NCBI GenBank assembly: GCA_021324685.1
Contig: JAJPIQ010000059.1
Span: forward strand, 1 to 58,654
Origin: Bacteroidota bacterium
GTDB lineage: Bacteria > Bacteroidota > Ignavibacteria > Palsa-1295
Length of the DNA: 58,654 nucleotides
Direction of reading: 5' to 3'
Shown here: positions 22,990 through 58,654 of the stretch, in pieces
Layout of the letters: each line of letters begins with the position of its first letter
Position numbering within the stretch: the stretch's first letter is position 1
Notes under the pieces: generated by a model
Told to the model about the DNA's origin: nothing
Database searches by the model: none
What the model saw: the letters and a program-made list of their open reading frames with translations, nothing else
Translations under genes and position numbers: made by a program

Positions 22990-23051
22990 AGTAAAGCATT
23001 GCGCGCAAAGGAGTAAAGGATTGTGCGAAGAAGTAAAGGATTGTGCGAAGA
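22990..23051. repeat. 20-nt tandem repeats upstream of the CxxC-protein gene
   Basis: Two identical copies of AGTAAAGGATTGTGCGAAGA (23012-23031, 23032-23051) follow a degenerate first copy from 22990. The rest of the 338-bp gap between the divergent sigma gene and the next gene shows nothing recognisable. Confidence 0.85.
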
Positions 23052-31690: not shown

Positions 31691-32523
31691 GTTCCAGAAA
31701 CCATAACACAACGCGCTTCGGGGTATAATCCGGAAACAGCCGCAGACAGAGGTAAGAGGGCCTTTCCAAGGCCCCCCACCCTCTTCATCGATGTTCGAAG
31801 TTACCCATATCGGTTACCTTTGCAAGCGTCCGCTTCTTTGCCTCTGAAGGAATGGGGTCTGCTCAGGCGTCCAGGGAAACGCGAAACATGGAAAGACTCA
31901 CTAATTCATAATATGGGATCGCGGGAAGAGAAAACTGATCTGGATAGAGAAAACTACTATTCCGAGACTTTCTCACCGGGCAAAGGATCGGTCGAAAATG
32001 CAAAGCGGTCTCTGGCTTCATTTGCTTCCTGGCACTCCCTGCGGGAACCCGTGGCCATGATCGAATCCCACGCAAGGCGGCGGCTCGCCGCATCGAACAG
32101 ACCGTAGTCCGGGCTTCGAAGCCGCTTGAGCGCAGCCGAGACGGAAATGTATGGGCGGTAGGCCATCGGAAATAGGACGGTCGGTCTGCGGTAAGACCCA
32201 GATGAAAGATTCGCCTCGAAGGCGTCCTGAAATATATCGATTATCAAACTATCGAACACCCTCACGCCGGAATTCATTACTCGGTCGAAATTCCCAGGCT
32301 ACTTGAAACACCCAGGCTATAACCTATCGAACGAGGATGCTCCTATGCCACTTGTTCAAATAAAACTAAGCTTGTTCAAATAAAACTAATCTCATTTCAA
32401 ATAAAACAATTTCTGATCCATTGTCTCCATACTGATGGAATTCAAGGTTTGGCTGTTTTTTTTGACCGCACAACCAGAGAGCCAACTCACATAGGCAACT
32501 GGATTTCCAGTTTCCTATTCGTC
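31691..32523. other. Gene-poor stretch with hairpin and short tandem repeats
   Basis: No convincing coding region; the ORFs seen on both strands lack family features. A hairpin at 31754-31786 (core GGGCCTT-TCC-AAGGCCC nested in AAGAGGG/CCCTCTT) may end the preceding transcript, though no T run follows. CCCAGGCTA recurs at 32293 and 32311 (18-nt period). A 20-nt unit CTTGTTCAAATAAAACTAAG is repeated three times at 32351-32410. Confidence 0.6.
32351..32410. repeat. 20-nt tandem repeat, three units
   Basis: CTTGTTCAAATAAAACTAAG (32351-32370) is followed by a copy with one change (32371-32390) and a more diverged third copy, CTCATTTCAAATAAAACAAT (32391-32410). The unit is AT-rich and lies about 115 bp upstream of element C. 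Confidence 0.9.
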
Positions 32524-55828: not shown

Positions 55829-57907
55829 TCAGCGCTCGACGACGAATCGAACACGCGCGGTTTGCGTGCCGCTGGACCGCACCGCCTCATACACGCCGTT
55901 TGGGAACCCCGTCACATCCCAGGTAGCCATACCCTCCTTCGACGCTAGCCGCGAAACGACGATGCCGGCTTCGTTCACGATCGAAATTCGGCCATCGCGC
56001 AAGTCGGAACTTACAAAGTGCACCGTCGGGGACGTTACGACGGGGTCCGGATAGACGTCAAGAGAAAAATCGCTCGGAGTTCCCGGTGCCCGCCGAACGG
56101 CAGACTCGATATCGTCCACGGGCCGCCTCCAGATGCCGTGACCGTCCGTCCCGGCAAAAAGATCGGAATTACGCTCGGCCAGCGAAAGGACCGTCGCCGT
56201 ATCGGAAAGCCCGTGGTTGAACGGCTGCCAGACAGAGTCGAGCGCCGTCCGCAGCACAAACACCCCGCCTCCGGCAGTAGCGCAAAATAAATTGGTCGCA
56301 TTCACGACGAACGCCGTGATCCCAAAATTAGTGAGCCCATGGTTCACCGTATCCCACTCGACGCCGTCGTTTGTCGTTCGCAGTACGCCAGACGTCGTGG
56401 AAATATAAATAGTGTTCCCAATGGCCGCGACCGCATTGATCGTCATGTGGCTTAAAAAACCGGTATCGATCGGCTGCCAGTTGGCGCCGTTATCGGTCGA
56501 GCGCTGAATGCCGCTGCCATTGGTCCCGGCCAGGAGGTCGCTCCCGTGCAACGCGAACGCGGTGACGTTCTGAAGGATCGAATTTTTTATGGCCCACGTA
56601 GCCCCCCCATCGGTCGAAAGCAGCACGCCGTTCTGCGTTGCCGCGAAAAGAACGGTTCCGTTCGGAAGAAACGCCGAAAAATCGCCGAGCGGCTCCGGGA
56701 GCGTATCCCAATTCGTTCCATTATTCGACGAATGGAGCGTCCGTCCGTCCAGCGTGGACATCACAAGGTTCTGCGCGACCCCAATGAGCGACCGTGCCGG
56801 CGCCGGCTGGACGTTTTCCCATGTATCGCCGCTATCGCTCGAACGCGCGACGTCACCGAAACCGGTAAGCGCAAAAAGATAGGGACCGCCCGAAAAGGTG
56901 GTCGGGACCGACGTTAACGCGATGCCGTTGCTCGCGTTCGGGGTGCCGTTCAGGCTATCGATAAAGATTCCCGCGTGCGCGGTCCCGATGAAAAGAGTCC
57001 CCGAATTCACCGCTAACGCGGTCACACGAAGTCCCGCCGGGTCCGACCCGACCGCAGCCCAGTGCGCCCCGGTGTCGGTCGATCGGAACAGGCCGTTCGC
57101 CGTTCCGGCGTACAGGTTCCCATCCCAGGCGAGCGCCAGGATGGCTTCTGGCGTAAGCTCGTTTCCGCCTTCCTGCCAGTGTGCGCCGCGGTCGGTCGAA
57201 CGGAAGATCGCGCCGGCATTCGTTCCGGCAACAACGGCGGCGCCGTTCGCGGCGAGCGATGTGATGTTATTCGCCGCAAGCCCGAGCCCGGCACTGACCC
57301 ACGTCTTGCCCGAATCGATGGAAGTGAAGATTCCCGCATCCGTACCGGCCACAAGGGTCTGTCCGCTCGTAGCCATCGCGAAGACGGATGCCCCTGCCGG
57401 CAGGTTACTGTCGGCCTCGTGCCATGTTTGCCCTGCGTCGCTCGAACGGAACAGGCCGCCGTTCGTGCCATCGTTCAACGTTCCCGCAAACAATGTAGAA
57501 CCGGCCGATGCGAGGAAAAGCACGTTCGAATTGGAAGGTCCCTGGGCGATGGGGCTCCATGTCACTCCTCCATCGCTGCTTAAGAATATGCCATTCCCCG
57601 CCGTCGCCGCAGACAGGGATGGACCAATGGGAAGGAATGCCGTGACCCGCGCATTCCCTGTAACCGCTGGCGACCACACCGAACGGTCTCCCGATAAACG
57701 ATAGATCGTGCCGACATCGGTGCCGGCCAGTAACTCCGGTCCTGAAGAGAACATGGACGTGATCGTTCCGCCTTCGGGGCCGTTCGTCTGCACCCACTGC
57801 GCGCGCAGCGGCGAAAACGAGAACGCGAGGAGCGAAAACCAGAGGAGCGAAAACCAGAAGAGCGAGAACGCTGGGAGCGAAAATGCGATCGTGCTGCGAA
57901 ATTTCAT
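55829..57907 (-). CDS. T9SS-exported propeller-repeat protein
   Basis: 692 residues. The signal peptide is unusual, with a repetitive core (LPAFSLFWFSLLWFSLLAFS). The body consists of about 13 short propeller blades with TLFAGTxxG, RSTDxGAHWxxxG and LAGTNGSGI motifs, as in sortilin/YCF48-like proteins. The C-terminus is a type A sorting domain (LDVYPDPVVTSPTVHFVSSD, ISIVNEAGIVVSRL, FPNGVYEAVRSSG). It is a paralogue in layout of the propeller T9SS gene at 43-45 kb. The ATG overlaps the stop of the upstream gene (ATGA). Confidence 0.85.
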   Translation of the reverse strand: MKFRSTIAFSLPAFSLFWFSLLWFSLLAFSFSPLRAQWVQTNGPEGGTITSMFSSGPELLAGTDVGTIYRLSGDRSVWSPAVTGNARVTAFLPIGPSLSAATAGNGIFLSSDGGVTWSPIAQGPSNSNVLFLASAGSTLFAGTLNDGTNGGLFRSSDAGQTWHEADSNLPAGASVFAMATSGQTLVAGTDAGIFTSIDSGKTWVSAGLGLAANNITSLAANGAAVVAGTNAGAIFRSTDRGAHWQEGGNELTPEAILALAWDGNLYAGTANGLFRSTDTGAHWAAVGSDPAGLRVTALAVNSGTLFIGTAHAGIFIDSLNGTPNASNGIALTSVPTTFSGGPYLFALTGFGDVARSSDSGDTWENVQPAPARSLIGVAQNLVMSTLDGRTLHSSNNGTNWDTLPEPLGDFSAFLPNGTVLFAATQNGVLLSTDGGATWAIKNSILQNVTAFALHGSDLLAGTNGSGIQRSTDNGANWQPIDTGFLSHMTINAVAAIGNTIYISTTSGVLRTTNDGVEWDTVNHGLTNFGITAFVVNATNLFCATAGGGVFVLRTALDSVWQPFNHGLSDTATVLSLAERNSDLFAGTDGHGIWRRPVDDIESAVRRAPGTPSDFSLDVYPDPVVTSPTVHFVSSDLRDGRISIVNEAGIVVSRLASKEGMATWDVTGFPNGVYEAVRSSGTQTARVRFVVER
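57825..57885. repeat. 15-nt tandem repeats coding the signal-peptide core
   Basis: Units near AGAGGAGCGAAAACC repeat about four times (57825-57840, 57841-57855, 57856-57870, 57871-57885). On the minus strand each codes a five-residue hydrophobic block such as FSLLW or FSLLA. Confidence 0.85.
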
Positions 57908-58350
57908 TCCCGTTCCCTCAGCTTAAGAAGTTCCTCATGATGGAGCGCGGCGAGCGCCGAGTCCTTCGATTCCCGGTCCGCCCACGTCCGGGTATCGTCT
58001 CCGCTTTTGAGCGAAACGATCCGCGTCGCGACGTACGAGCGCGGCCGGTCGCCCGCCGCGTCGTAAATATTATAGGTGACCAGCAGTTCATCTTTTGCAT
58101 GATTCGCAAGAAAGCAGGCCATCTCCGGCGCTCCCATCGCGGCATGCAGCATCATCTGGTCCGATTTGTCCCGAAAGAAAAATTGGGTGGAATCCTTTTT
58201 ATCGAACCGGAGGAATTCCGCGTGGGTCGTCACCGTCTTGAGCAGCCGGGCAGGCGCGGTCGAATCGACCGGGACCGTAGCCTGACGACCGCCTCCTGCG
58301 CGTACGCCCATGCCTAACGCAAGGAGCGAGCAAAGTAAGAAAGATTTCAT
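57904..58350 (-). CDS. Secreted protein of unknown function
   Basis: 148 residues from the ATG at 58350. Signal peptide MKSFLLCSLLALGMGVRAGG; a longer frame (30 more residues) runs through the tandem promoter repeats and is rejected. The mature domain is mixed alpha/beta (FLRFDKKDSTQFFFRDKSDQMML, DELLVTYNIYDAAGDRPRSYVATRIVSL) and ends in a charged helix (ALHHEELLKLRERE). No family recognised. It overlaps the propeller T9SS gene and should be co-expressed with it. Confidence 0.65.
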   Translation of the reverse strand: MKSFLLCSLLALGMGVRAGGGRQATVPVDSTAPARLLKTVTTHAEFLRFDKKDSTQFFFRDKSDQMMLHAAMGAPEMACFLANHAKDELLVTYNIYDAAGDRPRSYVATRIVSLKSGDDTRTWADRESKDSALAALHHEELLKLRERE

Positions 58351-58430
58351 GCGAAAATAAAACTTGATGTGCGAAAATGCAACTTCATGTACAAAAATAC
58401 AACTTGATGCGCGAAAATACAACATTCCTG
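58351..58430 (-). promoter_or_regulatory. Four 20-bp tandem repeats each with a -7-like box
   Basis: GCGAAAATAAAACTTGATGT and three variants fill 58351-58430 with an exact 20-nt period. On the minus strand each unit contains TAttTTyG or a near match: 58412-58419 TATTTTCG, 58392-58399 TATTTTTG (perfect TAnnTTTG), 58372-58379 CATTTTCG, 58352-58359 TATTTTCG. Confidence 0.75.
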
Positions 58431-58530
58431 TACGCAGCACCGAAAAGTAAGCACGTTTGACGGGTGAAACCGGAAACCGCGCGTGGCGTGTTATTTTTTT
58501 GTTCCTTTTCTATAAATCCATTTTCGTCTT

Positions 58531-58654
58531 ATGAAACGATCCTTGCTGTTGGTCTCGGTCTTTGGAATTTTATTTCTTTCTTCGTGTAAGCATAGCACCG
58601 ACGCATCGGGCGGCGGCGGTTACCGCGGCTCATTCAGCGCGACGGTCGATGGCA
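58531..58654 (+). CDS. Lipoprotein, N-terminal part (runs off the window)
   Basis: The first 41 codons only: MKRSLLLVSVFGILFLSSC with lipobox LSSC, then KHSTDASGGGGYRGSFSATVDG. Lys after the Cys is compatible with outer-membrane sorting. The rest is outside the window, so the function cannot be judged. The leader has a T-rich stretch but no perfect -7 box. Confidence 0.75.
   Translation, partial: MKRSLLLVSVFGILFLSSCKHSTDASGGGGYRGSFSATVDG

Follow-up and report, generated by a model that had tools for sequence, protein, structure and literature searches.

In Mycobacterium tuberculosis, promoter segments of dop, lpdA and cysG are reported to be tandemly repeated, in units of 54-58 bp whose copy number differs among strains (PMC12817950). 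The hmw1A gene of Haemophilus influenzae is described with heptamer repeats, in some 13-24 copies, the number of which changes (PMC8262952), and in Beggiatoaceae and some Bacteroidetes, direct repeats of TAACTGA that precede start codons are described (PMC4679880). Sigma-A promoters of Bacteroidota carry a -7 box, TAnnTTTG, and a -33 element, TTG or TTTG. By the published consensus, the third T of this box matters (PMC9723704, PMC7366714); in Flavobacterium psychrophilum the box spans -12 to -5 (PMC9723704).

The array that we describe here lies in a window of 58,654 bp, one whole contig of an 89-contig, 3.47-Mb assembly, and occupies 58350-58423 on the minus strand, where its 20-bp units run head to tail (TRF: period 20, 3.7 copies, 81% matches; an alternative TRF reading gives a 40-bp period with 2 copies and 87% matches). 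When periods from 10 to 30 were scanned, the array matched itself best at 20, in 44 of 54 columns, as against a maximum of 30 and a mean of 24.4 columns when the same 400 bp were shuffled 500 times with dinucleotides preserved. Such a head-to-tail repeat, far above chance, is a tandem repeat of the minisatellite type. Read on the minus strand, unit u1 (TATTTTCGCGCATCAAGTTG, 58400-58419) begins with the box TATTTTCG (58419-58412), immediately preceded by TTG at 58422-58420. It is followed by u2 (TATTTTTGTACATGAAGTTG, 58380-58399), whose box TATTTTTG (58399-58392) is the sole perfect TAnnTTTG of the array, and by u3 (CATTTTCGCACATCAAGTTT, 58360-58379), whose box CATTTTCG (58379-58372) departs from TAnnTTTG twice, with CA for TA (the first T being missing) and with TTCG. 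The last unit, u4 (TATTTTCGCATGAAATCTTT, 58340-58359), again has the box TATTTTCG (58359-58352), which ends 1 nt ahead of the ATG of a 148-aa gene, so that the unit extends into this gene. The earlier note had placed four minus-strand boxes upstream of the gene at 58412, 58392, 58372 and 58352, and these coordinates are exact, being the low ends of boxes spaced by precisely 20 bp. Likewise, its observations that one box is a perfect TAnnTTTG and that ATG or ATC follows each box held up: the triplets from u1 to u4 are ATC, ATG, ATC and the real ATG of the gene. A genome-wide family of the array unit was ruled out, as a search of the 3.47-Mb genome with up to three mismatches returned three matches, all within the array.

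Our preferred reading, to which we assign a probability of roughly 0.6, is that the array is an old minisatellite lying across a promoter of the sigma-A type, in which the box of u2 is the one good box that is left, rather than a switchable promoter array. Units u1 to u3 agree pairwise at 15, 16 and 17 of 20 positions (3-5 differences), and because they agree at no more positions than these, a recent change in copy number is unlikely. The units are thus not the near-identical ones of a phase-variable promoter repeat; 100% matches were reached by 10 of the 60 other intergenic arrays of this genome, as against 81% for the focal array. Upstream of five same-genus orthologues of the 148-aa gene, TRF found no tandem repeat. 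Three of these orthologues have a single TATTTTTGCGC, at 14, 26 and 59 nt from the ATG, and two lack TAnnTTTG within 300 bp upstream. The simplest reading of these sequences would be that the array arose within the lineage of this species once it had separated from those relatives, and not recently. As judged from a single assembly of the species, the idea of a phase-variable copy number, also raised by the earlier note, therefore finds no support in the diverged units or in the five orthologues. The changes private to u2, C to T in the box and ATC to ATG, could represent either a gain or the ancestral state.

Across u1 to u3, 6-7 of the 8 box columns and 9-10 of the remaining 12 are conserved, which means that the box is hardly better kept than the rest. 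This spread of conservation over the whole unit, together with a period near two helical turns, would suit a tandem operator, whose 20-bp units would be bound by a regulator on one DNA face to repress or activate the gene. We nevertheless regard an operator as unlikely: at up to three mismatches the genome has no further copy of the unit, which leaves no regulon, a dyad was not seen in the unit by eye, and the orthologues do without the array.

The 148-aa gene itself (57904-58350, minus strand) encodes a protein with a signal-peptide-like N-terminus and without a Pfam match. It is present in 6 of 100 genomes searched, all of the same genus and its own genome counted. The five aligned orthologue proteins are 38-51% identical to it; four loci with the gene among GTDB contigs, the nearest 51% identical, lie on the same contigs as same-genus orthologues. 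Its end overlaps by ATGA with a gene for a 692-aa BNR/Sortilin-Vps10 propeller (55829-57907, minus strand), which is probably on the same transcript and whose product shows a weak secretion-tail match, below the cut-off. Within this propeller gene, a 15-bp repeat of 3.8 copies (57827-57883) encodes the signal-peptide-like stretch FSLFWFSLLWFSLLAFSF and has a TTTTCGC core in common with the neighbouring 20-bp array. On the other side of the array, a divergent lipoprotein-like gene (MKRSLLLVSVFGILFLSSCKHS...), read by eye, extends over 58531-58654 on the plus strand until the contig end cuts it; its 41-aa fragment gave no Pfam match. No E. coli-type promoters were found, and no Rfam RNA element in 57800-58654 at E 0.1.

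The start of the 148-aa gene bears on yet another reading, namely that translation begins at the ATG at 58425 and that the array codes for an extension of the N-terminus. No stop interrupts the frame as far as 58425, and our hexamer-model gene caller chose that start; set against this, the aligning orthologues start with the signal-peptide-like segment or close to it, in favour of the ATG at 58350, and 20-bp units do not divide into whole codons, so that the encoded peptide is not repetitive. We thus hold a coding array to be very improbable.

Promoter signs were surveyed in the upstream regions of genes, over a length of at most 150 bp, in 1.21 Mb of the genome, window included. Genes were called with a hexamer model at 91% coverage, which replaced a first caller covering only 74%. 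All counts are confined to upstream regions of at least 40 bp, and the box counts do not include that of the focal gene; the totals are 592 regions for strand counts and 583 for context counts, from which regions too near stretch ends were also dropped. In the 592 regions, TAnnTTTG occurs 62 times on the gene strand versus 34 times antisense, and TATTTTTG alone 20 versus 4 times; the counts for TATTTTCG alone, 6 sense versus 2 antisense, are too few to judge. CG directly precedes 30 of the 62 sense boxes (583 regions), 37 of 62 have an A two bases behind the box G, and 7 of 62 have a TTG exactly 20 bp upstream, which is the peak of the TTG-to-TA spacing table (0 at 17-19; 2-3 at 21-23). A start codon follows at a gap of 2-6 in 10 of the 62, and gap 4 stands out with 6 cases in 591 regions versus about 0.55 per position further out. 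Antisense boxes preceded by CG (12 of 34) presumably are promoters of divergent genes.

The form found in u1 and u4, TAnnTTCG, is distributed evenly between the strands (23 sense versus 25 antisense in 583 regions); of the 23 sense boxes, 2 have CG in front, none has a TTG at spacing 20 and 1 has a start codon at gap 2-6. Similarly, CA..TTCG, the form of u3, was counted 28 times sense and 23 times antisense; CG in front and a TTG at spacing 20 each accompany 1 of the 28 sense boxes. The earlier gene calls at 74% coverage point in the same direction (TAnnTTTG, 23 sense and 7 antisense; TAnnTTCG, 12 and 26). Since the TTCG forms lack the promoter signs seen with TTTG, the third T of the box appears to matter in this genome. 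An EM motif model of the 592 upstream regions drifted to a T-rich tract, with antisense equally occupied (0.73 and 0.74), and was not used as evidence; it scored all four units alike (10.1-11.6) and tolerated C at the third T (0.39).

Taken to the locus, these counts concern a region that is very probably the promoter of the 148-aa gene. TAnnTTTG is carried by u2 only, u1, u3 and u4 having TTCG, and the TTG ahead of u1 precedes the u2 box by exactly 20 bp, the preferred spacing. If the box corresponds to -12 to -5, transcription from u2 is predicted to start at about 58387 (region 58386-58388, minus strand), and the predicted starts of u1, u3 and u4 would fall at about 58407, 58367 and 58347. 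The last of these lies within codon 2, and u4 therefore cannot make a full message from the ATG at 58350. Of the tandem -7 boxes with staggered starts proposed in the earlier note, what stands is the promoter region, the fit of u2 and the agreement between the array period and the commonest TTG-to-TA spacing of the genome; what finds no support is the notion of four working boxes.

This agreement is also why some weight stays with a working ladder of overlapping sigma-A promoters, in which each unit would supply a -7 box as well as a TTG that acts as the -33 element for the next, starts would be staggered and expression would rise with unit number. The exact 20-bp phasing suits such a ladder, TTG-N20-TA is the peak spacing of the genome, and the M. 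tuberculosis promoter copies, which are reported to change in number (PMC12817950), provide a precedent. We still judge the ladder unlikely, given TTCG boxes without any promoter sign tested, the CA of u3, a u4 start inside the gene, units that have diverged and orthologues without the array.

Signs of leaderless-type starts extend across the genus: in whole-genome counts over seven genomes, TATNTTTG-N4-ATG occurs 143 times, versus 74 times with N3 and 76 times with N12. These counts touch on a possible upstream ORF of 13 codons inside the array (MKLHFRTSSFIFA followed by a stop, 58347-58388, minus strand), which was identified from its sequence only and whose TGA overlaps the ATG of the gene (ATGA). 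Transcripts from u1 or from further upstream would carry this ORF, and translation of the gene could then be coupled to it. The ATGA overlap, which recurs at the junction with the next gene, speaks for such a leader control; the ORF's ATG, however, lies 3 nt behind the u2 box, a gap outside the genus-wide excess, and the coupling lacks comparative support. On balance, we consider leader control improbable.

Tandem arrays are numerous in this genome. At a TRF score of at least 50 and a period of 10-45, the 1.21 Mb sampled contain 60 intergenic arrays with periods of 12-30 and units that are unrelated between arrays; the focal array is not among them, since it fell inside the 148-aa gene as lengthened by the gene caller. 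Examples are a 30-bp unit in 5.2 copies (L099, 3653-3807), a 23-bp unit in 4.9 copies (L050, 10089-10201) and a 14-bp unit in 7 copies (L040, 8128-8225). The window holds two further intergenic 20-bp arrays with unrelated units, at 22990-23051 (3.0 copies) and 32351-32407 (2.8 copies). Besides, in L070 (920-959), a 20-bp repeat of two copies, of which one has TAATTTTG and the other TGATTTTG, precedes a gene by 18 bp. By orientation of the flanking genes, 22 arrays are tandem minus, 16 divergent, 15 tandem plus and 4 convergent, with 3 at stretch edges, and these numbers follow intergenic length (32.8, 29.6, 29.6 and 9.9 kb, in the same order). In as many as 32 of the 60 cases, a start codon follows the array at a distance of no more than 40 bp, versus 20.7 +- 3.4 under random placement, and none of 300 trials reached 32. 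This excess argues against pure neutrality, and the arrays as a class may not be strictly neutral, although crude start calls could contribute. TAnnTTTG on either strand is present in 4 of 61 arrays (the 60 plus the focal one), and the focal array is alone among the 61 in having at least three boxes when TTCG and CA are allowed. Samples of 100 kb contained 3 arrays in each of two same-genus genomes (G001 and G005), none in a same-family genome (G007) and 2 in a same-class genome (G041), so that array density may be high in this genus, small as the samples are.

We also considered phased box pairs as a recurring device and rejected them: TATTTTYG-N12-TATTTTYG with up to two mismatches was found 18 times in the own genome versus 21 times for the reversed control, the only perfect pair being that of u1 and u2. 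In most relatives the pattern exceeds the reversed control (26 versus 9 in G004, 11 versus 1 in G007), which probably results from common single TATTTTTG boxes.

Under the reading of an old minisatellite, a 20-bp segment over the core promoter and start region would have been duplicated in tandem some time ago, by the same process that lies behind the many unrelated intergenic minisatellites of the genome. The copies would have diverged afterwards, leaving u1, u3 and u4 decayed or weak. Transcription would most likely begin about 5 nt downstream of the u2 box, with u1's TTG as the -33 element; we infer u2 to be the promoter in use and the array as such to be without function. Pure chance would not lead one to expect a period identical with the commonest TTG-box spacing; even so, a period of 20 is shared by 8 of the 60 arrays.

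It would be a more far-reaching proposal that one 20-bp duplication gives a self-consistent promoter ladder and that promoters are generally added or tuned in this genome through start-proximal minisatellites; we regard this as improbable. A ladder, if true, would offer a simple route to new promoters, a single duplication being enough provided that its length is right. The present case is a modest one. It yields, as useful by-products, a promoter signature computed for a lineage that is uncultured and for which a limited literature search found no start-site maps, the signs of leaderless-type starts and an unusual number of start-proximal minisatellites.

The array resembles the tandem promoters of M. 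tuberculosis in that copies of a promoter region stand head to tail directly upstream of a gene, whereas those units measure 54-58 bp and vary among strains and ours measure 20 bp, have diverged and are known from one assembly. With H. influenzae hmw1A, a surface-protein gene, it shares a tandem repeat over promoter elements, yet the units there are 7 bp long and change in number, as opposed to about four diverged units without evidence of change. The TAACTGA repeats likewise are short, arranged in tandem and placed close ahead of start codons; there, one heptamer is used genome-wide, whereas here each array has its own unit. Compared with the sigma-A promoter of Bacteroidota, u1, u3 and u4 differ by their TTCG, and starts at this locus are predicted ones, while u2 matches it with a perfect box, of a form that is in gene-strand excess in this genome, and with a TTG 20 bp upstream.
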